DNA from: Hylemonella sp.
GTDB taxonomy: Bacteria > Pseudomonadota > Gammaproteobacteria > Burkholderiales > Burkholderiaceae_C
Length of the DNA stretch: 64,000 bases
NCBI RefSeq assembly: GCF_027532185.1
Contig: NZ_JAPZSV010000002.1
Span: 124,001 to 188,000 of the forward strand
Direction: 5' to 3'
Positions within the stretch are counted from its first letter, which is position 1. Each line of letters starts with the position of its first letter. The notes below the pieces were generated by a model. It made no database searches. It saw only the letters and a program-made list of their open reading frames with translations, and was not told the origin of the DNA. Position numbers and translations under genes: made by a program. This document shows, in pieces, positions 45,680 through 60,595 of the stretch.

Positions 45680-47491
45680 TTAACGGGGGACCCAGCGCAA
45701 GGTCAGGTAAGCAGCGCGGCCCTGCTGGTTGTAGCCGTTGACCGTCTGGTAGACCTTGTCGCCCAGGTTGTTGACGCGCGCCTGCACGGACCAGTCCTTA
45801 TTGAGGACGTAGTCCACATGGGCGTCCAGAGTGCCGAAGCCTCCCAGGTAGATCGTGTTGGCTACGTTGTCATAGCGCTCGGAGGCTGCCAGGAATGTGG
45901 CCCCGTATTTCCAGGCACCACGGCGGTAGTCCGCCCCCAGGGTGAGCTGCTCGTCAGCGCGGCGTTGCAGCATCTTGCCCGTCAGCTCGTCACGCGCCTC
46001 CAGCAGATCGAGTGCGCCACGCAGGCCCAGCGCATCAAACTGGCCGACGTAGCTCAGCGTCCAGCCCTGGATGCGCACACGCGGAATGTTGGTGGCTACA
46101 GGCTGGGTCGTGATGAACCCCTTGATCTTGTTGTCGAAGTAGACAACCTTGTACTCCTGCGCGCCTGGCGTATAAGCCAAACCGACCTCGCGGTTGCGCC
46201 CTTCTTCGGGCTGGGTGGTCGCGTTGCCGAAGTTCGGGAAATACAGGGTGTTAAAGGACGGCGCCTTGAACGAGGTGCCGTAGGACACATGGGCGCGCAG
46301 ATCACGCGTGAGCTTGTAGCCGTAGCCGGCAAAGCCGGTGGTCGCACCGCCGAACTGCGAGTTATCGTCCCGCCGAACATTGATTTGCCAACTGTGACCG
46401 TCGGCATCGCCGTTGAGGCCGGCAAACACCGAGTCCGTGCTGCGCTGGTTGACGGCATAGGCCGTGGTGCCGCTCACCCGTTGATCCACGCGCTCCAGGC
46501 CTGCCAGCACCAGACCCAGCGGGGTTCCGATCTCATTGAGCCAAGACCACTGGTCCTGATGCGTATCGAAGCGCGACGTCGAGGTGCTGGTGTAGCTGGT
46601 GGATTTGTCGTCGCTGCCCCCGTAGGACAAACGCGATTTCCAGTTCTGCAGCAATTGACCTTCCAGATTCACGCCATAGCTCTGGGTCTGGACGTCGGCG
46701 CGTACGTCGAAGGCGCTGGCACCACTGTCGTAGTGGTTGACACCATCGGCGTGCAGCAGATTGGCCCCGAGCTTCCAGCCCGGGGCGAAACGCCAGCTGG
46801 TGGAGGCCGTGAGGCTGTCCTGGGAAAACCCGTCGAGGTCCCTGTTGTAACCGGAGCCGACAGCGGGGTTGGTGGCCGAGAAGCCTCTTTCGCGCAAGGA
46901 CTGTACGCCCAGGTTGTAAGACACCGCTTTGGAGCCGCCACTCAGGCCCGTACTGATTTCATTGCGCCCGGCGCTGCCCACGGTCGCGCTGGCGTAGGGG
47001 AAGAAGCCCTCACGGCCTTGGCGCATGAAGATCTGGATCACACCGCCGACGGCATCGCTGCCATACAGGGCCGACGCCGGGCCCTTGAGCACCTCGATGC
47101 GCTCGATGCTCTCCAGCGGGATGTTGTCGAAATTGGCCTGGCCAGCCGTGGCCGAACCCACACGCACGCCGTCGACCAGCAGCAGCACATGGGTACTGGC
47201 CGTGCCGCGGATGAAGATGCTTGAGTTCTTGCCCAGGCCGCCATTGCCCGTCATCTGCACGCCGGCCACGCGGGAAATCAGCTCGGCCACGGTTCTGCCC
47301 GTGCCCTTTTCGATGTCCTCGCGGGTGATGACCGTCACGTCGCTTAGCACGGCATCGGCGCGCGATGCGGTGCGGGTCGCGGTCACGACGGTCGGGCTGA
47401 GCTCGCCGCCCTGAGCGAGGACGGATGAAGAAAGCAAGGCAGCGGCCAGCGCGACGGCAGCCTGGCGCTTGTACGAAACGCAAAGAGTCAT
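45680..47491 (-). CDS. btuB: TonB-dependent cobalamin receptor
   Basis: BtuB carries corrinoids across the outer membrane using TonB energy. The 603-residue protein has a signal peptide (QAAVALAAALLSSSVLAQ), a TonB-box-like LSPTVVTATRT, a plug domain (DVTVITREDIEKGTGRTVAELISRVAGV, FIRGTASTHVLLLVDGVRVG) and a beta-barrel ending in an aromatic-containing strand (GRAAYLTLRWVPR). E. coli BtuB is about 600 residues. The cobalamin riboswitch lies about 80 nt upstream, which both identifies the ligand and explains regulation. It is the first gene of the 14-gene operon. Confidence 0.92.
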   Translation of the reverse strand: MTLCVSYKRQAAVALAAALLSSSVLAQGGELSPTVVTATRTASRADAVLSDVTVITREDIEKGTGRTVAELISRVAGVQMTGNGGLGKNSSIFIRGTASTHVLLLVDGVRVGSATAGQANFDNIPLESIERIEVLKGPASALYGSDAVGGVIQIFMRQGREGFFPYASATVGSAGRNEISTGLSGGSKAVSYNLGVQSLRERGFSATNPAVGSGYNRDLDGFSQDSLTASTSWRFAPGWKLGANLLHADGVNHYDSGASAFDVRADVQTQSYGVNLEGQLLQNWKSRLSYGGSDDKSTSYTSTSTSRFDTHQDQWSWLNEIGTPLGLVLAGLERVDQRVSGTTAYAVNQRSTDSVFAGLNGDADGHSWQINVRRDDNSQFGGATTGFAGYGYKLTRDLRAHVSYGTSFKAPSFNTLYFPNFGNATTQPEEGRNREVGLAYTPGAQEYKVVYFDNKIKGFITTQPVATNIPRVRIQGWTLSYVGQFDALGLRGALDLLEARDELTGKMLQRRADEQLTLGADYRRGAWKYGATFLAASERYDNVANTIYLGGFGTLDAHVDYVLNKDWSVQARVNNLGDKVYQTVNGYNQQGRAAYLTLRWVPR

Positions 47492-47569
47492 GATGAAGAG
47501 CGGATACGTGTCCTCCCCGGCTTCCCCGCCAGGGCATGGACGGCACGGCTGCGCGCAGGCGCACAACCA

Positions 47570-49650: not shown

Positions 49651-50583
49651 ATGCGTATTGCCATCATCGGCCAGCAGGATTTCGGCAAGGCTGTGCTGGA
49701 AGCCTTACTCGCGCGCGGTGACGACGTCGCCGGCGTGTTCTGCAAGCCCGAGAAGCCCGGCGAGAAGCCCGACGCCCTGCGCGCGGCGGCCGAGAGCATG
49801 GGGCTGAAGGTCTTCCAGTTCGCCAGCCTCAAGAGCCCCGAGGCTGAAGAGGCCCTGCGCGCGCTGAATGTCGATCTGGGCGTGATGGCCTATGTGCTGC
49901 AGTTCGTGCCGCAGGCCTTCGTCAACATCCCGAAGCACGGCACCATTCAGTACCACCCCTCGCTGCTGCCCAAATACCGCGGCCCTTCCTCGATCAACTG
50001 GCCCATTGCGCGCGGCGACAGCGAGACCGGGCTGACCATCTTCCGCCCCACCGACGGGCTGGACGAAGGGCCGGTGATCCTGCAGAAGCGCTGCGCCATC
50101 GGTCCCGACGACACTTTGGGTGACGTGTACTTCAACCAGCTCTTCCCGCTGGGCGTGGCCGCACTGCTGGAAGCCGCCGACCTGGTGGTGGCCGGCCGGC
50201 ACACCGAGACCGTGCAGGACGAGCGCCAGGCCAGCTACGAGGGCTGGTTCAGGGCCGAGGAATCGCGCATCAACTGGGCCAACCACGTCGACCAGGTCTA
50301 CAACCTGATCCGAGCCTGCAACCCCGCACCCGGCGCCTGGTGCGAACTCGGTGGCGTCAAGGTCTCGCTCTACGATTGCCGCAAGCATCCGGTACGCACC
50401 TTCGGAGCGGTGCGTGGCAAGCCGGGCGAGATCGTGCGCATCACCGAGCAGTCGCTGTTCATCAATGCCCAGGGCGGCATGATCGAGGTGCTGCGCCTCA
50501 AGCCCGAAGGCGGCAAGAAGATGGGCGCGGCGGATTTCGCCCGCGAGCGCGGTCTGCAGGCTCTGACACAGACCAGCGCCTGA
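49651..50583 (+). CDS. Formyltransferase family protein (10-formyl-THF hydrolase-domain-like)
   Basis: This 310-residue protein has an N-terminal formyltransferase fold (RIAIIGQQDFGKAVLEALL; HPSLLPKYRGPSSINWPI with the catalytic His; TDGLDEGPVILQK; then GPDDT) and a C-terminal formyltransferase domain (INWANHVDQVYNLIRACNPAPGAW). It is closer in pattern to the N-terminal hydrolase region of 10-formyltetrahydrofolate dehydrogenase than to methionyl-tRNA formyltransferase; the aldehyde dehydrogenase part is absent. In this oxalate region it may handle formyl groups, for example formyl-CoA or formyl-THF. A terminator follows. Confidence 0.78.
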   Translation: MRIAIIGQQDFGKAVLEALLARGDDVAGVFCKPEKPGEKPDALRAAAESMGLKVFQFASLKSPEAEEALRALNVDLGVMAYVLQFVPQAFVNIPKHGTIQYHPSLLPKYRGPSSINWPIARGDSETGLTIFRPTDGLDEGPVILQKRCAIGPDDTLGDVYFNQLFPLGVAALLEAADLVVAGRHTETVQDERQASYEGWFRAEESRINWANHVDQVYNLIRACNPAPGAWCELGGVKVSLYDCRKHPVRTFGAVRGKPGEIVRITEQSLFINAQGGMIEVLRLKPEGGKKMGAADFARERGLQALTQTSA

Positions 50584-50766: not shown

Positions 50767-50780
50767 TTGACCGCAATCAA
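50767..50780 (+). promoter_or_regulatory. FNR-type box upstream of tctC
   Basis: TTGACCGCAATCAA fits the TTGAY-N4-ATCAA half-site layout with one mismatch to the FNR consensus. Exactly 22 nt downstream is CACAGT, a poor but possible -10, which would place the box centre at -41.5. The rest of this 310-bp gap holds the terminator upstream and an AT-rich leader. Confidence 0.7.
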
Positions 50781-50893
50781 GAGCGTTTTCGCGAGAAAAT
50801 TTCACAGTAGCTGACATCGATTGCTGCGAAGCGATCGAGAGGCTATCGAAGAGTGGTCCTCGTCGACAGACGGTTTATCAACAGGAGACAAAG

Positions 50894-51916
50894 ATGAAGA
50901 GCTTTCAAGCCAAACTGAAAACCCGGGTGGTGGCTGCTGCCACCGCCATCATCGCCGCCACCGGCCTCGGTGCATCGATGACGGCCCATGCGTGGGAGCC
51001 GACCAAGCCCGTCGAATTCGTCGTGCCTGCCGGCACTGGCGGCGGCGCGGACCAGATGGCCCGCCTGATGCAGGGCATCATCGTCAAGCACAAGCTGATG
51101 AACCAGTCCCTGATCGTGGTGAACAAGTCCGGCGGCGCTGGCGCCGAGGGCTTCCTCTCCGTCAAGGAAGCCAAGGGCGATCCGCACAAGATCATCATCA
51201 CCCTCTCCAACCTCTTCACCACCCCGCTGGCCACCGGCGTGCCCTTCAACTGGAAGGACATGACCCCCGTCTCCATGATGGCGCTCGACCAGTTCGTGCT
51301 GTGGGTCAACGCCGACAAGCCCTACAAGACCGCCAAGGAGTACCTGGATGCCGTCAAGGCCGCTGGCCCCAACAAGTTCAAGATGGGCGGCACGGGCTCC
51401 AAGCAGGAAGACCAGATCCTGACCGTGGGCATGGAAAAGGCCACCGGCACCAAGTTCATCTACGTGCCCTTCAAGGGGGGTGGTGAGGTGGCTGTGCAGC
51501 TGGTCGGCGGCCACGTCGACTCCAGTGTGAACAACCCGGCCGAGGCCGTGGCCCAGTGGCGTGCCGGCAAGCTGCGCGCCCTGTGCGTGTTCGACGACAC
51601 CCGCATGCCCTACAAGGAAAAGGTCACCGACACCCAGTCCTGGGCTGACATCCCGACCTGCAAGGAAGCTGGCGTGCCGGCGGACTACGTCATGCTGCGC
51701 GGCATCTTCGCAGCGCCTGGCATCACGGCCGACCAGCTCAAGTACTACGTGGACCTGATGCAGAAGATCCGCGCCACGCCGGACTGGAAGGAGTACATGG
51801 AGAAGGGTGCCTTCAACCAGACCTTCATGACCGGTGCCGACTTCACCAAGTGGCTGACCGCTGCTGAAAACACCCACCGCGACCTCATGAAGGAAGCGGG
51901 CTTCCTGGCCAAGTGA
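50894..51916 (+). CDS. tctC: Tripartite tricarboxylate transporter substrate-binding protein (Bug/TctC)
   Basis: This 340-residue Bug-family periplasmic binding protein has a signal peptide ending around MTAHAW, followed by the family opening KPVEFVVPAGTGGGADQMARLMQGII, the FVVPAG loop that binds carboxylates. It should deliver a carboxylic acid to TctA/TctB. GGAGACAAAG precedes the ATG. The FNR-type box shared with the oxc promoter makes oxalate or a related acid a reasonable ligand; that is inference. A strong hairpin follows the gene. Confidence 0.92.
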   Translation: MKSFQAKLKTRVVAAATAIIAATGLGASMTAHAWEPTKPVEFVVPAGTGGGADQMARLMQGIIVKHKLMNQSLIVVNKSGGAGAEGFLSVKEAKGDPHKIIITLSNLFTTPLATGVPFNWKDMTPVSMMALDQFVLWVNADKPYKTAKEYLDAVKAAGPNKFKMGGTGSKQEDQILTVGMEKATGTKFIYVPFKGGGEVAVQLVGGHVDSSVNNPAEAVAQWRAGKLRALCVFDDTRMPYKEKVTDTQSWADIPTCKEAGVPADYVMLRGIFAAPGITADQLKYYVDLMQKIRATPDWKEYMEKGAFNQTFMTGADFTKWLTAAENTHRDLMKEAGFLAK

Positions 51917-51944
51917 TCCACTTGATCCGGTAAAAAACCAAACC

Positions 51945-51974
51945 GCCGGACCCGGCATTCCGCCCGGGTCCGGC
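51945..51974 (+). promoter_or_regulatory. Intercistronic stem-loop between tctC and tctB
   Basis: A perfect 11-bp stem GCCGGACCCGG/CCGGGTCCGGC with an 8-nt loop and no T-run lies between binding-protein and permease genes. Such elements commonly stabilise the upstream message, giving more binding protein than permease. Confidence 0.6.
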
Positions 51975-52091
51975 ACCTCCAACCCAACGCAACTGCAAGA
52001 GTGGGACGGTGACCGGTACAGCTGGCACTGACCCAAGTTTTCTGCCGCCCAAAATTACATCAACAGACCTTTCTTTTTCACGGAATTGACT

Positions 52092-52601
52092 ATGGAATCA
52101 CACGAAGGCGAACGCAAAGGCGTAGCCACCAACATCGTCGACGCAGTTGTCGCCGTCTTGGTCCTGATCTTGGGCGGCATCGTTATTTATGGCAGCCGCA
52201 AGCTCGGCTCAGAGTGGACCACCGATGGTCCTGGCGCCGGCTATTTCCCCTTTTACATCGGCCTGATCCTCTGCATTTCCGGCGTCGGCGTGCTGTACCA
52301 GGCCCTGGCCGGCAAGGAAAAGAACACGGAAGTCTTCGTGGACCGCGAGCAGCTGGGCCGCGTGCTGTCGGTGCTGGTTCCGGCCGCCGTCTACGTGGGC
52401 GCAATCCAGCTGATCGGCATCTACGTCGCGTCGGCGATCTACATCGCCCTGTTCATGATCATCCTGGGCAAGTACAGCTGGCTCAAGAGCGCGATCGTCG
52501 CCGTGGCGGTCAACACGCTCTTCTTCATGATGTTTGAAGTCTGGTTCAAGGTTCCGCTGCACAAGGGCGCCCTGGATCCGCTTAGCTTCCTGGGCTACTG
52601 A
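52092..52601 (+). CDS. tctB: Tripartite tricarboxylate transporter small membrane subunit
   Basis: This 169-residue protein has four membrane segments (IVDAVVAVLVLILGGIVIYG, GYFPFYIGLILCISGVGVLY, VLVPAAVYVGAIQLIGIYVASAIYIALF and a last one) and the TctB pattern GPGAGYFPFYIGLILC. It forms the membrane complex with TctA. The ATG giving MESHEGE was chosen; a TTG two codons upstream is in frame. TctA begins 32 bp downstream. Confidence 0.9.
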   Translation: MESHEGERKGVATNIVDAVVAVLVLILGGIVIYGSRKLGSEWTTDGPGAGYFPFYIGLILCISGVGVLYQALAGKEKNTEVFVDREQLGRVLSVLVPAAVYVGAIQLIGIYVASAIYIALFMIILGKYSWLKSAIVAVAVNTLFFMMFEVWFKVPLHKGALDPLSFLGY

Positions 52602-52633
52602 GCGCCCGCGCGGAATAACGGAGATTAGAGAAA

Positions 52634-54163
52634 ATGGAAGAAATCAACGCATTGTTCCAGGGCTTCGCCACGGTGATGACCCCCATGAACTTCCTGCTCA
52701 TGGTGGTTGGCATCATCCTCGGTGTGCTCATCGGCGTGCTGCCAGGCCTGGGCGGCGCCAACGGCGTGGCCATCCTGCTGCCACTGACCTTCAGCATGAA
52801 CCCGACCTCGGCCATCATCATGCTGTCGTGCATCTACTGGGGCGCCCTCTTCGGCGGCGCCATCACCTCGGTGCTGTTCAACATCCCGGGTGAACCCTGG
52901 TCGGTCGCCACGACCTTCGACGGCTATCCCATGGCCCAGAAAGGCCATGCGGGCGAGGCGCTGACGGGTGCTTTCACCTCCTCCTTCATCGGCGCCTTCG
53001 TGGCGGTGGTGATGATCACCTTCCTGGCCCCGCTGGTTGCCAAGTTCGCCCTGAAGTTCGGCCCGCCCGAGTTCTTCTCGGTCTACCTGCTGACCTTCTG
53101 CAGCTTCGTGGGCATGGGCAAGGGCTCGCCCTTCAAGATCCTGGCCTCGATGACCATCGGCTTCGCCCTGGCGGCCGTGGGCATGGACACCGTGACCGGT
53201 CAACTGCGCCTGACCTTCGGCTTCCATGAACTGATGCGCGGCTTCGACTTCCTGATCGCGGTGATCGGCCTGTTCGGTATCGGTGAAATCCTGCTGTCCA
53301 TGGAAGAGGGCCTGTCCTTCTCGGGCAAGAGCGCCAAGATCGACCCCAAGGTCGTCTGGCAGACCTGGAAGAAGCTGCCCGCCTACTGGGCCACTTCGCT
53401 GCGCAGCTCCGTGATCGGCATCTGGATGGGTATCACCCCCGGTGGTGCCACCCCGGCCTCCTTCATGGCCTACGGTATCGCCAAGAAGGTCTCCAAGACC
53501 GGCGACAAGTTCGGCACCGGCGAACTCGAAGGCATCGTTGCGCCCGAGACGGCCGCCCACGCTGCCGGTACGGCCGCCCTGCTGCCCATGCTGGCCCTGG
53601 GCATCCCCGGCTCTCCGACCGCCGCCGTGCTGCTGGGTGGTCTGCTGATCTGGGGCCTGCAACCCGGCCCGCTGCTCTTCGTCGAGCAGAAGGACTTCGT
53701 CTGGGGTCTGATCGCCTCCATGTACCTGGGCAACCTGGTTGGCCTGCTGGTCGTGCTGACGACGGTGCCGCTGTTCGCCTCGATCCTGCGCATCCCCTTC
53801 TCGATCATCGCTCCCGTGATCATCGTGATCTGCGCCATCGGTGCCTACACCGTGCACAACGCCATGCTCGACATCTGGTTCATGCTGCTCTTCGGCGTGG
53901 TGGGCTATGTGTTCAAGAAGCTCGACTACCCGATCGCGCCGCTGGTGCTGGCCCTGGTGCTGGGCGACAAGGCCGAGGACTCCTTCCGCCAGGCCATGCT
54001 GGTCTCGCAGGGTGAGATGTCGATCATGTTCTCCAACGCACTCGTCGGCTCCATCACCACCCTCGCCCTCGTGCTGCTGTTCTGGCCGGTCATCTCCAAG
54101 CTGATCGCTCTGGTCAAGCCGCCGAAGCAGGACGAGTTTGCCGAGCAGCGCGGCGTGGACTGA
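52634..54163 (+). CDS. tctA: Tripartite tricarboxylate transporter large permease
   Basis: This 509-residue TctA protein has about 11-12 membrane segments and the family signatures GVLIGVLPGLGGANGVAILLPLTF, YWGALFGGAITSVLFNIPGEPWSVATTFDGYPMAQKG, and GEGLEGIV-type EGIVAPETAAHAAGTAALLPMLALGIPGSPTAAVLLGG. It is the transporting subunit driven by an ion gradient. Family length is about 500. The next gene starts 53 bp later and probably shares the transcript. Confidence 0.95.
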   Translation: MEEINALFQGFATVMTPMNFLLMVVGIILGVLIGVLPGLGGANGVAILLPLTFSMNPTSAIIMLSCIYWGALFGGAITSVLFNIPGEPWSVATTFDGYPMAQKGHAGEALTGAFTSSFIGAFVAVVMITFLAPLVAKFALKFGPPEFFSVYLLTFCSFVGMGKGSPFKILASMTIGFALAAVGMDTVTGQLRLTFGFHELMRGFDFLIAVIGLFGIGEILLSMEEGLSFSGKSAKIDPKVVWQTWKKLPAYWATSLRSSVIGIWMGITPGGATPASFMAYGIAKKVSKTGDKFGTGELEGIVAPETAAHAAGTAALLPMLALGIPGSPTAAVLLGGLLIWGLQPGPLLFVEQKDFVWGLIASMYLGNLVGLLVVLTTVPLFASILRIPFSIIAPVIIVICAIGAYTVHNAMLDIWFMLLFGVVGYVFKKLDYPIAPLVLALVLGDKAEDSFRQAMLVSQGEMSIMFSNALVGSITTLALVLLFWPVISKLIALVKPPKQDEFAEQRGVD

Positions 54164-54216
54164 TCGCCTGGGCCCGCCCCCTGCCCTGACCACCCTGCAT
54201 TGAAGGAGTTCAGACC

Positions 54217-55050
54217 ATGGCCGTGATTGCAATGACCCAGGAAATGGGATCGCTCGCAAAAGACGTGGCCATGGAGCTGGCCAGCACGATGAACCTCTCC
54301 ATGCTGCGGCATGAGGTGGTGGATCACGTGGCCGGCAAGATGCATGTGTCGTCCAGCCTCATCAAGCGGCTGCGCGAGGGCAAGGCGGGCCTCATCGAGC
54401 GGGCCACGGCGGATACGGCGAGCATGGCGCTCTACACCGCCGAGGAAGTCTACGAGCTGGCCAACCGGGGCAATGTGGTCCTGCGCGGCTGGGGAGCCAC
54501 CTGCCTGTTGCGCCCGGTGCCCCATGTGGTCACCGTGCGCATCACGCGCTCCTTCCACAAGCGCGTCGAGTGGCTGATGAACCACCTGGAGACCGACGAC
54601 CGCGATTTCGCGGAAAGCGAGATCCGCCGTAGCGACCATGCGCATGCCACCCGCATGCATCAGCTCTTCGGCGTGACCTGGGGCGACCCGGTGCTCTACG
54701 ACCTGGTGCTCAACACCGACCGTCTCAGCGTGCACAGCTGTGTGGAGCAGATCCGCCAGCTGACGCAGCGTCCCGAGTTTCAGGCCTCGGAGGCTTCACG
54801 CCAGCTGCTGGCCAATATGGCGCTGTCAGCCCACGTGCGCTCTGCCCTCAAGGCCAACGAGAGCACGCAGGAAGTGAACATCACGGTCGAAGCCCAGCAG
54901 GGACGCGTCGTCCTCAAGGGCATCGTGGTCAATGAGCAGGAACACCAGCAGGCCGAGAGGGTCGCGGCCGCTGTCAAGGGCGTCACAGGCGTGGAAAACC
55001 GCCTGCGCCTCATGAAAGCCACCCGGACCTTCACCTACTCCAAGACCTGA
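54217..55050 (+). CDS. Cytidylate-kinase-like protein with C-terminal BON domain
   Basis: This 277-residue protein begins MAVIAMTQEMGSLAKDVAMELA, like the cytidylate-kinase-like family (PF13189), but the usual GSGG phosphate loop is changed to GSLAK. The region VVLRGWGATCLLRPVPHVVTVRI and LYDLVLNTDRLS also fit. Residues about 212-272 are a BON domain (VNITVEAQQGRVVLKGIVVNEQEHQQAERVAAAVKGVTGVENRLRL), which normally binds membranes or ligands. There is no signal peptide, so it is cytoplasmic. It follows tctA with a good ribosome binding site (GAAGGAG). A sensing role for transport or stress is speculation. Confidence 0.7.
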   Translation: MAVIAMTQEMGSLAKDVAMELASTMNLSMLRHEVVDHVAGKMHVSSSLIKRLREGKAGLIERATADTASMALYTAEEVYELANRGNVVLRGWGATCLLRPVPHVVTVRITRSFHKRVEWLMNHLETDDRDFAESEIRRSDHAHATRMHQLFGVTWGDPVLYDLVLNTDRLSVHSCVEQIRQLTQRPEFQASEASRQLLANMALSAHVRSALKANESTQEVNITVEAQQGRVVLKGIVVNEQEHQQAERVAAAVKGVTGVENRLRLMKATRTFTYSKT

Positions 55051-55093
55051 GCGGCATCTTGCCGACCTGCCCTGAGCGGACAGGGCAGCCTCC

Positions 55094-55126
55094 AGGCCTG
55101 TTCCTCACAGAACAGGCCTTTTTTCT
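55094..55126 (+). terminator. Terminator of the tct operon
   Basis: A perfect 10-bp stem AGGCCTGTTC/GAACAGGCCT with a CTCACA loop is followed by six T residues and CTT. It ends the transcript that includes tctCBA and the kinase-like/BON gene. Confidence 0.92.
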
Positions 55127-55151
55127 TGTTCTTGGGAACGACGCGCGCGCC

Positions 55152-55760
55152 TCAGATCTTGCCGCGTTGTTTCAAACGGCTCAAGGTCTCGGCCGAGAGA
55201 TTGAGGTAGGCCGCGAGCTCCTTCTTGGGGATGCGGTCGAAGAGCTCGGCATGCTTGCGCAGAAACCGGTGCACGCGGCCCGGCGCGTCCAGCAGGTGCA
55301 GCGTGATGGTGTGCGCCATGATCTCGCTCATGAGGTGCATGACGCTGTACTCGAAAAGGCGCTTTTCCTCGGGGTGACGTTCGAGGAAGGCGATCCATTC
55401 GGGCATGGGCAGCTTGACCACCCGCGACTTGATCACCGAGACGATGCTGTAGGGCGTGGGGGTCTTCAAAGACCATGCGGCGTAGCTGGTTTCCATCTCA
55501 CGCTCGGCCGCGAAGCGCAGGATCATTTCCTTGCCTTGCGGGTTGGCCACCACGCGCTTGAGCACGCCGTCGAGGATGAAATACTGTTCCATCTCGTGCA
55601 CGCCCTGGTGCAGCAGGAAGTCACCCTTGTTGCAGTCCACCACCGTGAGATGCTGCTCCAGCTCCTCGTGCGAGGTTGCACTCATGCCCTTGAGGACGTG
55701 GTTCTGGCGGAGTTGAACCCGGATGATGTTTTTTTCCGGATGATTCTCTATGGATGTCAT
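55152..55760 (-). CDS. Crp/Fnr family regulator of the oxalate region
   Basis: This 202-residue protein has an N-terminal effector barrel (CNKGDFLLHQGVHEMEQYFILDGVLKRVV) and a short C-terminal HTH whose recognition helix SAETLSRLKQ carries E-T-x-S-R, the combination FNR uses to read TTGA half-sites. It has only one cysteine (Cys43) and lacks the FNR Fe-S cysteines, so it probably senses a metabolite. It ends soon after the HTH. It is divergent from oxc and convergent with the tct operon, and both have TTGAC...TCAA boxes. It is therefore the likely activator of both. Confidence 0.88.
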   Translation of the reverse strand: MTSIENHPEKNIIRVQLRQNHVLKGMSATSHEELEQHLTVVDCNKGDFLLHQGVHEMEQYFILDGVLKRVVANPQGKEMILRFAAEREMETSYAAWSLKTPTPYSIVSVIKSRVVKLPMPEWIAFLERHPEEKRLFEYSVMHLMSEIMAHTITLHLLDAPGRVHRFLRKHAELFDRIPKKELAAYLNLSAETLSRLKQRGKI

Positions 55761-55837
55761 GGGGTCCTGGAATCGCGCCCGCCTGGCGCCGGTTTCGGGC
55801 CGTCTTCCCTCTGGAAGCCGGTCATTTGTCCCGAAAA

Positions 55838-55851
55838 TTGACCGTGGTCAA
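55838..55851. promoter_or_regulatory. FNR-type palindrome upstream of oxc
   Basis: TTGACCGTGGTCAA is a TTGAC-N4-GTCAA palindrome. TATCAT (55874-55879) starts exactly 22 nt after it, so if this is the -10 the box is centred at -41.5, as in class II FNR/CRP promoters. It lies 77 bp before the divergent regulator's start and may also autoregulate it. Confidence 0.78.
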
Positions 55852-55873
55852 TGGCGTAAAACGGATCGCTTCC

Positions 55874-55879
55874 TATCAT
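55874..55879 (+). promoter_or_regulatory. Candidate -10 of the oxc promoter
   Basis: TATCAT lies 22 nt after the TTGACCGTGGTCAA box. This would put transcription start near 55886 and give a 5' leader of about 165 nt before oxc. I see no riboswitch motif in that leader. Confidence 0.6.
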
Positions 55880-56051
55880 AACCCGGCGTTACCAACCGAC
55901 CCGGCTCCACCCCTGTGCAGCCATGGAGGGCGGCAACGCTGGCACCCCGCCTGCGCGCTCCCGGGGCGCGCCTTATCCCCCGGAGCCGCAGGTATTTGCC
56001 AGCCGGGTCGCCCGACTTTCAACGACGTCCAACACCGAGAGAGACTGCACC

Positions 56052-57788
56052 ATGTCCAACGACGCCCAAACCAGAGAACTGACCGACGGTTTCCACCTCG
56101 TCATTGATGCTCTGAAACTCAACGGGATCACCAACATCTACGGCCTGCCGGGTATTCCGGTCACGGACCTGACCCGCATGATGCAAGCCGAAGGCATGCG
56201 CGTGATTTCCTTCCGCCATGAGGCCAACGCGGGCAACGCCGCGGCCATCGCCGGCTTCCTCAACGGCGCCAAGGGCATCCCCGGCGTCTGCCTGACGGTG
56301 TCGGCCCCCGGCTTCCTCAACGGCCTGGTGCCGCTGGCCAACGCGACGACCAACTGCTGGCCCATGATCCTGATCTCTGGCTCCTCCGAGCGCGAGATCG
56401 TCGACCTGCAGCAGGGCGACTACGAAGAGATGGACCAGCTGGCCATCGCCAAGCCCCTGTGCAAGGCCGCCTTCCGCGTGCTGCACGCCGAAGACATCGG
56501 TGTGGGCATTGCCCGCGCCATCCGTGCTGCCGTCTCCGGCCGCCCGGGCGGTGTCTACCTGGACCTGCCGGCCAAGCTGTTCTCGCAGACCATGGACGCG
56601 CTGGCTGGCAAGAACTCGCTGATCAAGGTGGTCGATCCGGCCCCGCGCCAGATCCCCGCCCCCGAGTCCATCGATCGCGCACTGAACCTGCTCAAGGGTG
56701 CCAAGAAGCCGCTGATCCTGCTGGGCAAGGGTGCCGCCTACGCCCAGGCCGACGCCGACATCCAGGCGCTGGTCGAGAAGACCGGCATCCCCTACCTGCC
56801 CATGTCCATGGCCAAGGGCATCCTGCCCGACACGCACCCGCAATCGGCCGCTGCCGCACGCTCCTTCGTGCTGCCCGAAGCCGACGTGGTGCTGCTGGTC
56901 GGCGCCCGCCTGAACTGGCTGCTCTCGCACGGCAAGGGCAAGACCTGGGGTGGCAAGGATCACAAGGACTGGGGTGGCCAGAAGTTCATCCAGATCGACA
57001 TCGCCTCCACCGAATTCGACAGCAACGTGCGCATCGACGCACCCATCGCCGGTGACATCGGTTCCAGCGTGGCCGCCCTGCTGGCCGGCATCGGCAACAA
57101 CTGGACCAAGCCCTCGGCTGAGTGGCTCAACGCCATCAACGAGAAGAAGACGAAGAACATCGCCAAGATGGCCGAGACCCTGGCCAAGGATCCGAAGCCG
57201 ATGAACTTCCACAGCGCCCTCAACGTGGTGCGCGACATCTTCAAGGCCCACCCCGACACCGTGATGGTCAACGAAGGCGCCAACGCGCTGGATTTCACCC
57301 GTTCCATCGTCGACATGTACAAGCCGCGCAAGCGCCTGGACGTGGGTACCTGGGGCGTGATGGGCATCGGCATGGGCTTCGCCGTGGCCGCCGCCGTCGA
57401 GACCAACCAGCGTGTCGTGGCCATCTGCGGCGACAGCGCCTTCGGTTTCTCCGGCATGGAGGTCGAGACCATCGCCCGCTACAACCTGCCTGTCTGCGTG
57501 GTGATCTTCAACAACAACGGCGTCTACCGCGGCACCGATGTGAACCCCACCGGCGGCAAGGACGTGGCCCCGACCGTGTTCGTCAAGGACTCCCGCTACG
57601 AGAAGCTCATGGAAGCCTTCGGCGGCGTGGGCGTCTACGCCCAGACCACGGCCGAGCTGCGCAAGGGCATTGAGGAAGCCCTCAAGTCCGGCAAGCCCAC
57701 CCTGATCAATGCCATCATCGACGAGACGGCCGGCACCGAGAGCGGTCGTATCACGAGCCTGAACCCCGCAGCCGCGATCAAAAAGTAA
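56052..57788 (+). CDS. oxc: Oxalyl-CoA decarboxylase
   Basis: Oxc is the thiamine-diphosphate enzyme that turns oxalyl-CoA into formyl-CoA and CO2. The 578-residue protein (O. formigenes Oxc about 568) has the N-terminal TPP domain with [12 protein letters not shown] and the catalytic Glu in [15 protein letters not shown], a central domain with [13 protein letters not shown], and the C-terminal TPP/Mg motif [33 protein letters not shown]. The ATG giving MSNDAQT was chosen. frc follows after 35 bp. The FNR-type box upstream suggests co-regulation with the transporter operon. Confidence 0.95.
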
Positions 57789-57823: not shown

Positions 57824-59098
57824 ATGTCTGGAAACAAACCCCTCAAGGGCATCAAGATCATCGACTTCACGCACGTGCAAGCCGGTCCCGCCTGCACCCA
57901 GCTGCTGGCCTGGTTCGGCGCTGACGTGATCAAGGTCGAGCGCCCCGGCGCCGGTGACGTGACCCGCAGCCAGCTGCGCGACATCCCCGATGCCGACGCG
58001 CTGTACTTCACCATGCTCAACAGCAACAAGCGTTCCCTGACCCTGGACACCAAGACCAAGGAAGGCAAGGAAGTGCTGGAGAAGCTGATCAAGAAGTCCG
58101 ACGTCATGGTCGAGAACTTCGGTCCCGGCGCGCTGGACCGCATGGGCTTCACCTGGGAGTACATCCAGAAGCTCAACCCCGGCATGATCCTCGCGTCCGT
58201 CAAGGGCTTCAGCGAAGGCCACCACTACGAAGACCTCAAGGTCTACGAGAACGTGGCCCAGTGCGCCGGCGGTGCCGCCTCGACCACCGGCTGGTGGAAG
58301 GGCGAGAACGCCGTGCCGACCATCTCCGCCGCGGCCCTCGGTGACTCCAACACCGGCATGCACCTGGCCATCGGTATCCTGACCGCCATCATCGGCCGCC
58401 AGCAGACCGGCAAGGGCCAGAAGGTCGCCGTGTCCATGCAGGACGCCGTGCTCAACCTGTGCCGCGTGAAGATGCGCGACCAGCAGCGCTTGGAGAAGGT
58501 CGGCTACCTGGAAGAGTATCCCCAGTACCCGCACGAGATGGAGTACTTCAAGGACAAGGTCACCCCGCGCGGCGGCAACGCCGGCGGCGGCGGCCAGCCG
58601 GGCTGGATCCTGAAGTGCAAGGGCTGGGAGACCGACCCCAACGCCTACATCTACTTCACCATCCAGGGTCACGCCTGGGAGCCGATCTGCGACGCGCTGG
58701 GCAAGCCCGAGTGGAAGACCGACCCGGCCTACACCACCGCCAAGGCCCGCCAGCCGCACATCGAAAAGATCTTCGCCACCATCGAAGACTTCATCAAGGA
58801 CAAGACCAAGTACGAGGCCGTCGACATCTTCCGCAAGTTCGACATTCCTTGCGCTCCCGTGCTCTCCATGAAGGAACTGCTGGTGGACGAGTCGCTGCGC
58901 AAGAGCGGCTCCATCGTGGAAGTGCCGCACCCCGTGCGTGGCAGCTACTACACCGTGGGCAGCCCGATCAAGTTCTCCGACCTCAAGCCCGAGGTCACCG
59001 CTTCGCCGCTGCTGGGCCAGCACACCGACGAGGTGCTTGCCGAGTTGGGCTACAGCAAGGACCAGATCGCGGCCATGCACACCAACAAGGCCGTCTGA
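57824..59098 (+). CDS. frc: Formyl-CoA:oxalate CoA-transferase
   Basis: Frc moves CoA from formyl-CoA to oxalate, making formate and the Oxc substrate oxalyl-CoA. The 424-residue class III CoA-transferase has [29 protein letters not shown], the catalytic Asp174 in [14 protein letters not shown], and the four-glycine substrate loop in [12 protein letters not shown] that is typical of Frc. It is nearly collinear with E. coli YfdW through most of its length. It forms an operon with oxc and ends with a strong terminator. Confidence 0.95.
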
Positions 59099-59347: not shown

Positions 59348-60595
59348 ATGACCAAGGCCCTCGAAGGCATCCGCATCCTCGACTTCACCCACGTGCAGTC
59401 GGGCCCGACCTGCACGCAGCTGCTCGCGTGGTTCGGCGCGGACGTGATCAAGGTGGAGAAAGCCGGCGAAGGCGACGCCACGCGTGCGCAACTGCGCGAC
59501 GTGGATGGCGCCGACAGCCTGTACTTCACCATGCTGAACCACAACAAGCGCTCCATCACACTGGACACCAAGAACCCCAAGGGTAAGGAAGTGCTGGTCA
59601 ACCTGATCAAGCAGTGCGATGTCATGGTGGAGAACTTCGCGCCGGGTGCGCTGGACCGCATGGGCTTTCCCTGGGAGAAGATCCAGGAGATCAACCCCCG
59701 CATCATCCTGGCCTCGGTCAAGGGCTTCGGCCCCGGTCCCTACGTCGACTGCAAGGTCTACGAGAATGTGGCCCAGTGCACGGGCGGCGCTGCCTCCACC
59801 ACCGGTGACCCGGACGGCATGCCCATGGTGACCGGCGCGCAGATCGGCGACAGCGGCACCGGCCTGCACCTGGCCCTGGGCATCGTGACCGCCCTGTTCC
59901 AGCGCGAAAAGACCGGCCGTGGCCAGAAGGTGCTGGCCGCCATGCAGGACGCCGTGCTCAACCTGTGCCGCGTCAAGCTGCGCGACCAGCAGCGCCTGGA
60001 GCGCACCGGCGTGCTCAAGGAGTATCCGCAATACCCCGAGATCGAGTTCGGCGAAGCCGTGCCGCGCGCGGGCAACGCCTCGGGCGGCGGCCAGCCGGGC
60101 GCTGTGCTCAAGTGCAAGGGCTGGCAGAAGGATCCCAATGCCTACATCTACTTCATCACACAGTCCAACGCCTGGCCGGCAATCTGCAAGGTGATTGGCG
60201 AGGAAGACTGGATCACCAACCCGCACTTCGCCACGCCGGCCGCCCGCCTGCCGCACCAGAAGATGATCTTCGCGCGCATCGAGGAGTGGACCAAGACCAA
60301 GACCAAGTTCGAGGCCATGGACATCCTCAACGAGTTCGACATCCCCTGCGGTCCCATCTTGTCCATGAAGGAGATCGCCGAGGACCAGTCGCTGCGTGCC
60401 ACCGGCACCATCGTCGAGGTCGACCACCCCGTGCGCGGCAAGTACCTCAGCGTGGGCAACCCCATCAAGCTCTCCGACAGCCCGACCGAAGTCACGCGCT
60501 CGCCGCTGCTGGGCGAGCACACCGAGGAAGTGCTGATGCAGATGGGCTACAGCAAGGCCCAGCTCGACGAGCTGCGCGCGGCAAAGGCCATCTGA
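59348..60595 (+). CDS. Second formyl-CoA:oxalate CoA-transferase-like protein
   Basis: This 415-residue class III CoA-transferase is clearly paralogous to the preceding frc: [27 protein letters not shown], catalytic Asp168 in [14 protein letters not shown], and [15 protein letters not shown]. The glycine loop reads [10 protein letters not shown] instead of [11 protein letters not shown], replacing one loop glycine with serine, and a 6-residue stretch after YPQYP is missing compared with its neighbour. It could be a second Frc or an acetyl-CoA:oxalate transferase of the YfdE/UctC kind. AGGAG lies before the ATG. It has its own promoter. Confidence 0.9.

Follow-up and report, generated by a model that had tools for sequence, protein, structure and literature searches.

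The regulator locus and its boxes

The stretch of DNA discussed here, hereafter the window, comprises 64 kb of contig NZ_JAPZSV010000002.1 from the 3.33-Mb genome of Hylemonella sp. (coordinates given without a contig name are positions in this window). Our subject is a gene for a Crp/Fnr-type regulator of 202 amino acids (55152-55760, minus strand), which lies between a transporter unit and the genes of oxalyl-CoA metabolism, just as an earlier sequence-only reading had placed it. On one side, all on the plus strand, are tctC, which encodes the receptor of a tripartite tricarboxylate transporter (50894-51916, Pfam TctC), tctB (52092-52601, Pfam TctB; the ATG at 52092 was picked by eye, the open reading frame (ORF) being listed from a TTG at 52086) and tctA (52634-54163, Pfam TctA). 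On the other side, likewise on the plus strand, follow oxc for oxalyl-CoA decarboxylase (56052-57788; TIGR03254, 963 bits against a cut-off of 739), frc for formyl-CoA transferase (57824-59098; TIGR03253, 721 against 504 bits) and a second frc paralogue (59348-60595; TIGR03253, 715 against 504 bits).

Two palindromic boxes accompany these units on the plus strand, TTGACCGCAATCAA before tctC (50767-50780) and TTGACCGTGGTCAA between the regulator gene and oxc (55838-55851), both found by direct reading and by exact-pattern search. Each ends 22 nt before a hexamer, namely a putative weak -10 of tct, CACAGT (50803-50808, plus strand), with a predicted start near 50815, and the -10 of oxc, TATCAT (55874-55879, plus strand), with a predicted start near 55886. 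In this respect the sequence-only reading was exact. The two boxes are the only zero-mismatch matches to TTGACCGYRRTCAA in the 64 kb, and TTGAN6TCAA occurs three times where 0.26 occurrences are expected. Across the whole genome, TTGACCGNNNTCAA has four sites (2 + 2 matches; 1 + 1 for the reversed-pattern control), and the two beyond the locus, one before a universal-stress-protein-like gene and one beside a TerC-like gene (both genes named by eye), look unrelated to oxalate. In two congeners (G014 and G145), the strict pattern TTGACYGNGGTCAA, which cannot match the TerC-side site, has a single site each, between regulator and oxc. A chance origin of the boxes was set aside on the basis of these window counts and of the shuffles and control patterns described below, and it is very unlikely also because the boxes are conserved in relatives.

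Box conservation and promoter geometry

Regulator orthologues were delimited at 66% identity or more within the family, where a gap separates them from the next proteins at 43%, and at 58% or more within the order. The resulting set comprises 83 loci, the window included; one 43% paralogue (L069) was counted in an 84-locus shuffle test and excluded from the 83. From the 53 carriers in the order besides our own genome, 48 regulator loci were taken, while G301, G341, G435, G436 and G465 were left out (of G341, the oxc gene was taken). A second, named set consists of the best 80 of 539 relatives and overlaps with the first (e.g., L185 is G145 and L188 is G014).

In most of the 83 loci, the regulator gene and oxc (in some cases frc or a lyase-like gene) are transcribed divergently, tctCBA often flanks the regulator on its other side, and tctC lies near the regulator in 53 loci. 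The sequence-only reading had proposed to look for the boxes upstream of orthologous operons, and there they are conserved: 71 of the 83 loci have TTGAN6TCAA between the regulator and the divergent gene (shuffles gave a mean of 0.36 of 84 and a maximum of 3, and none of nine control patterns occurred more than once), as do 80 of the 80 named loci. In the twelve loci without an exact gap box (L110-L113, L115, L117, L122, L131 and L137-L140), oxc, frc or fmt is preceded by an exact one; this box is part of the same locus in nine cases, and in three (L110, L115 and L117) it stands at a distant oxc (L174, L173 and L170, respectively). When the 450 bp before head genes were examined for exact boxes in two partly overlapping sets, these were found at 72/77 and 75/76 oxc or oxc-like genes and at 32/47 and 47/53 tctC genes. 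The positions from -44 to -12 relative to the box carry at most 0.21 bits, and the conservation of the box is therefore not merely a matter of recent descent. Half-sites read TTGAC in 364 of 416 cases, and the T/A found in FNR sites occupies both inner sides in only 3 of 208 boxes. The shared box that had been proposed is thus conserved, but its consensus is better written as TTGACCGYGGTCAA, and its spacing to the -10 is 22 or 23 nt rather than exactly 22.

The promoter geometry was analysed in contexts made distinct by their 70-nt stretch, 129 on the side of the divergent gene (oxc or an oxc-like gene comes first in 120, frc in 9) and 79 at tct. On the divergent side, TA...T stands at a spacer of 22 in 68 contexts and of 23 in 49 (117/129), with three or fewer at any other spacer, and a weight matrix detects a -10-like hexamer at spacers 21-23 in 129/129, as compared to a mean of 12.1 at ten other spacer triples. 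At tct, 70 of 79 contexts have the reduced motif.A...T at a spacer of 22 or 23, against at most 35 at non-overlapping spacer pairs. A -35 element is mostly absent, since four or more of the six bases of TTGACA are matched in only 15/129 and 4/79 contexts, respectively. The proposed class II geometry, judged from spacing rather than from mapped starts, accordingly held up for oxc and, with a weak -10, for tct: by this spacing, the box would be centred at about -41.5, upstream of a -10 that lacks a -35.

The predicted oxc leader of about 166 nt contains no RNA element scoring above the Rfam gathering thresholds. The sole Rfam match in the window is a cobalamin riboswitch (RF00174, 47560-47797, minus strand, 75.6 bits) immediately before an ORF (45680-47566, minus strand) that, judged by eye, resembles a gene for a TonB-dependent receptor.

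A similar architecture is known for FNR of Escherichia coli and is described, in passages of PMC7349173, for that of Ideonella dechloratans at cld: as here, an E-T-x-S-R helix is combined with TTGAN6TCAA centred at -41.5 and with a weak -10 or no -35, and according to the same passages the weak -10 of the I. dechloratans promoter, which is of class II, retains -11A and -7T. FNR differs in its cysteine cluster, which is absent here, and in the box, whose inner bases are here mostly C/G and not T/A; furthermore, the boxes described here are concentrated at the oxalate/formyl-CoA cluster.

The regulator and the probable reader of the box

The regulator has an N-terminal cNMP-binding-like beta-roll (Pfam cNMP_binding, 31.9 bits against a cut-off of 27.5), and its structural model (m323df85745b5) matches Crp/Fnr structures. 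The Crp helix-turn-helix family PF13545 scores 15.6 bits, below its cut-off of 27, and the protein ends seven residues past the ETLSR motif; the model has helices at residues 179-185 and 190-198, and hidden Markov model (HMM) alignments with DNR and CRP extend through ETLSR. This motif (residues 191-195; 55176-55190, minus strand), each residue of which is at least 97% conserved among the 83 orthologues, would form an FNR-type ETxSR recognition helix, in keeping with the TTGA boxes adjoining the gene; the sequence-only reading had recognised it correctly. Among solved structures, the best sequence matches are DNR (3dkw_A), which also ranks first in Foldseek, and the Cytophaga hutchinsonii regulator 3dn7, whose alignment reaches residue 199 of the profile. 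Both share about 20% identity or less with the regulator, and no tie to oxalate was seen for either in this analysis.

With respect to its signal, the regulator has a single cysteine (C43), which is replaced in several orthologues, and thus lacks the cysteines of the FNR [4Fe-4S] cluster. In CRP, cAMP is contacted by Glu72, Arg82, Ser83, Thr127 and Ser128. None of these is retained in the regulator, to judge from a visual reading of its HMM alignment with CRP (4i02); in the profile alignment, the corresponding positions are Ser92, a variable position (Thr102 here), Pro103, Ile147 and Met148. It is also unlike CRP in its DNA box and in having no wing after the recognition helix. Identities as a cAMP sensor or an Fe-S sensor were set aside on the missing CRP contacts and FNR cysteines, and to judge by these residues the regulator is neither an O2 sensor of the FNR type nor a cAMP sensor of the CRP type.

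The regulator gene is closely associated with oxc, as defined by a match to TIGR03254. Of 200 genomes of the family, 35 carry the regulator, 37 oxc and 35 both (Fisher's exact test, 5e-37), and of 300 genomes of the order the numbers are 54 (our own genome included), 51 and 46 (5e-40); the p-values are optimistic because the genomes are related. Among 274 genomes of the class, the regulator was found in our own genome only. Its nearest orthologues in the named collection are from Curvibacter, Hylemonella and unclassified Burkholderiales assemblies, other carriers there include Oxalicibacterium, Herminiimonas, Collimonas, Variovorax and Polaromonas, and the box is found across dozens of genera. 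The genomes with oxc and no regulator are G049 and G052 in the family and G316, G355, G441, G449 and G486 in the order. For Burkholderiales oxc genes in genomes without the regulator, six of seven lack an exact box. Taken over 16 oxc-positive genomes without a close regulator, of which seven were scanned over 400 bp and nine over 1500 bp upstream (G449 has only a weak match to the regulator, E 4e-6), an oxc box occurs in one (G052). The co-occurrence, together with this scarcity of oxc boxes in genomes that lack the regulator, points to the neighbouring Crp/Fnr protein as the cognate factor.

Regulator paralogues (34-43% identity) occur in G066 (locus L054), G168 and G104. In G066, one regulator copy lies beyond tctC, and a TTGACCGCGGTCAA box of its own precedes it by about 150 bp. 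The paralogue of G168 has an ETFCR helix, and the exact box is absent from its 16.6-kb locus.

The strict pattern TTGACYGNGGTCAA was also searched in 30 of the 34 other family carriers and in 30 of 165 non-carriers. It has 45 sites in the carriers, spread over 23 genomes; 35 of the sites lie within 10.5 kb of the regulator (a limit set after viewing the matches), and one further site lies in a second tct-oxc cluster of G197. Away from the regulator, its density is 0.076 per Mb, as compared to 0.059 per Mb in the non-carriers (8 sites, 8 genomes), and the regulon therefore looks local. A wide genome regulon was set aside, since strict boxes outside the cluster are near the level of non-carriers.

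From these features it appears probable, and we hold it with some confidence, that the neighbouring Crp/Fnr gene encodes a pathway-specific class II activator of the oxalate/formyl-CoA genes and the tct transporter. A regulator dimer would bind TTGAC(C/T)GYGGTCAA boxes centred near -41.5, over the place of the missing -35, and would recruit sigma-70 RNA polymerase in class II fashion. This would activate the oxc-frc unit, which leads from oxalate via oxalyl-CoA to formyl-CoA, as well as the tctCBA unit, whose transporter probably imports oxalate. The inducer would most likely be a metabolite of the pathway, formyl-CoA or oxalyl-CoA (or oxalate).

Several observations weigh against this assignment. 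An exact box is missing at head tctC genes in 15 of 47 and 6 of 53 cases, and the tct -10 is weak, in that the weight matrix detects it at spacers 21-23 in 22 of 79 contexts versus a mean of 12.8 elsewhere. A separately standing second frc is mostly without a box (present in 9/32 and 7/48). Of seven carriers whose distant oxc was looked at, the 400 bp upstream hold an exact box in three and a one-mismatch box in two; of the other two genes, that of G197 stands behind tctCBA with a box before tctC, and that of G341 lies at a contig end with no upstream sequence. Eight genomes of the order carry the regulator without a true oxc. Conversely, G052 has an oxc box without a regulator (its oxc lies at a contig end), and G486, also without a regulator, has a box before tctC and none before oxc. 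The genomes are related, so that the counts are not independent. Finally, 12 loci for cNMP-domain proteins were read in our own genome, and three of them encode an ETxSR helix: the regulator, FNR, which has CX2CX5C and LETVSR (contig C10, at about 305 kb), and a third Crp/Fnr protein, whose 223-residue frame contains a PETLSR helix (C11:709941-710198, minus strand; L158). In this genome TTGACNNNNRTCAA occurs at 15 places (21 matches; control 1 and 2), and the tct box agrees with the FNR consensus in nine of ten positions. Given the two further ETxSR regulators and the resemblance of the tct box to the FNR consensus, cross-talk is possible, mainly at the tct box. The region C11:701909-710198 holds four cNMP-domain genes, the third ETLSR protein among them.

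The boxes might thus be sites of FNR or of the third ETLSR protein, with the neighbouring Crp/Fnr gene having another role. In passages of PMC7349173, FNR of I. dechloratans, also a member of the Burkholderiales, acts on TTGACTTAAATCAA at a class II position with a weak -10. The 15 TTGACNNNNRTCAA places of our own genome moreover include TTGAC-type boxes between fnr and a hemN-like gene (C10:305062-305075, L271) and before a universal-stress-protein-like gene (C13:97797-97810, L003; this and the hemN-like gene named by eye), and these two are possible targets of the host FNR. However, the consensus of the conserved boxes is TTGACC..GGTCAA and not the TTGAT....ATCAA of FNR, with T/A on both inner sides as rarely as stated above, which favours the neighbouring protein. 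Likewise, the recognition helix of the regulator is conserved, its gene goes together with oxc, and an oxc box was seen in just one of the 16 genomes without the regulator (the presence of FNR in those 16 was not checked). We therefore regard control by another Crp/Fnr protein as improbable. Still less credit is due, in our estimate, to a regulator that acts as a repressor, or mainly on its own gene, at the divergent gap, and that releases oxc upon metabolite binding. The box does lie 8-179 nt before the regulator's own start, and on the reverse strand there is a mild excess of -10-like hexamers at 9-12 nt from it, the distance expected if the box contained a -35, although distances of 1 and 5-7 nt show such an excess as well. 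Against this, a like reverse-strand enrichment is seen at tct boxes and may be explained by AT-richness, and what fits activation is that the spacing is fixed at 22/23 nt, that a -35 is lacking and that the tct box keeps this geometry although it lies far from the gene for the regulator.

Scope of the regulon and the likely signal

The sequence-only reading had called this an oxalate regulon. The boxes at oxc and tct across orthologues bear out its core, but the scope of the name is perhaps too narrow, because the regulon accompanies clusters that generate formyl-CoA even if these have no oxc. Of the eight regulator-positive order genomes without true oxc, seven (G206, G235, G247, G279, G290, G329 and G473) have a divergent boxed gene for a thiamine diphosphate (ThDP) enzyme 24-27% identical to Oxc. 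All seven loci retain TA...T at spacer 22 or 23, frc-like genes come next in 7/7, and a formyltransferase-like gene is present in six (not in G206). The lyase-like proteins of L099 and L105 fall below the cut-offs of all 25 NCBIfam models among the matches listed, and that of L099 is closest among solved structures to 2-hydroxyacyl-CoA lyase (7pt3). In the remaining genome, G483, genes resembling frc and fmt are present, and the box precedes the frc-like one. At L065, L099, L100, L101, L105, L106, L126 and L127, a gene for a ThDP enzyme resembling 2-hydroxyacyl-CoA lyase stands instead of oxc, likewise divergent from the regulator and preceded by this box; at L065 (G197), a true oxc is found in a second cluster. 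2-Hydroxyacyl-CoA lyases release formyl-CoA, according to PMC7176365. The metabolite common to oxc and lyase-like loci would then be formyl-CoA.

A formyltransferase-like gene also lies upstream of tctC in the window (49651-50583, plus strand; Pfam Formyl_trans_N/C). Such a gene is near the regulator in 56 of the 83 loci and in many other loci is placed after an frc-like gene. The closest solved relative of the window's protein is the hydrolase domain of 10-formyltetrahydrofolate dehydrogenase (1s3i, E 8e-58), and all 56 copies read contain Q[YF]HPS[LV]LP. The protein might transfer formyl groups between formyl-CoA and tetrahydrofolate. Between tctA and the regulator, the window further encodes a fusion of a cytidylate-kinase-like and a BON domain (54217-55050, plus strand; Pfam Cytidylate_kin2 and BON), which is found near the regulator in 18 of the 83 loci.

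The regulator might instead control a broader formate or one-carbon response, with formate, CO or redox as the signal and the oxalate genes as merely its most conserved targets; the boxed lyase-like enzyme in seven of the eight genomes without true oxc and the frequency of the formyltransferase-like gene would both agree with it. However, the local character of the regulon, with strict boxes elsewhere in carriers near background, and the lack of an Fe-S or cAMP signature (heme was not looked for) speak against it, and we consider it unlikely. With activation by the neighbouring Crp/Fnr protein as the preferred explanation, a more specific idea concerns its ligand. The conserved residues T91, Y93-A-A-W96 and P103 occupy the places of the cAMP contacts of CRP, and the regulator stays when the lyase-like enzyme replaces oxc. 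For these two reasons we tentatively raise the idea, although the odds are against it, that the regulator represents a Crp/Fnr subfamily with a beta-roll adapted to sensing a short acyl-CoA (formyl-CoA or oxalyl-CoA), i.e., a formyl-CoA-responsive transcription factor.

In the open-access literature searched, by titles and listings and in passages, no dedicated Crp/Fnr regulator of the oxc-frc pathway was found. In the parts accessible to the search, neither Crp nor Fnr appears in PMC12542777, PMC12927642 or PMC3886118, and Crp does not appear in PMC9476978 (Fnr was not searched there). The oxalate cluster of Burkholderia phytofirmans PsJN, as far as it is described in the available text of PMC3886118, contains oxc and frc as here; it differs in its order antiporter-oxc-frc with an oxalate/formate antiporter, and the word "regulator" is absent from that text.

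The regulon proposed from the window alone has thus become a well-supported comparative-genomic hypothesis. It ties a regulator to the oxalate pathway across many Burkholderiales, with a box and a promoter architecture precise enough for mutation tests. A switch responsive to oxalate or formyl-CoA could be of use in soil carbon studies, in oxalate removal and in formyl-CoA-based C1 engineering, and if the regulator does sense an acyl-CoA, it would be a ready biosensor for formyl-CoA chemistry.

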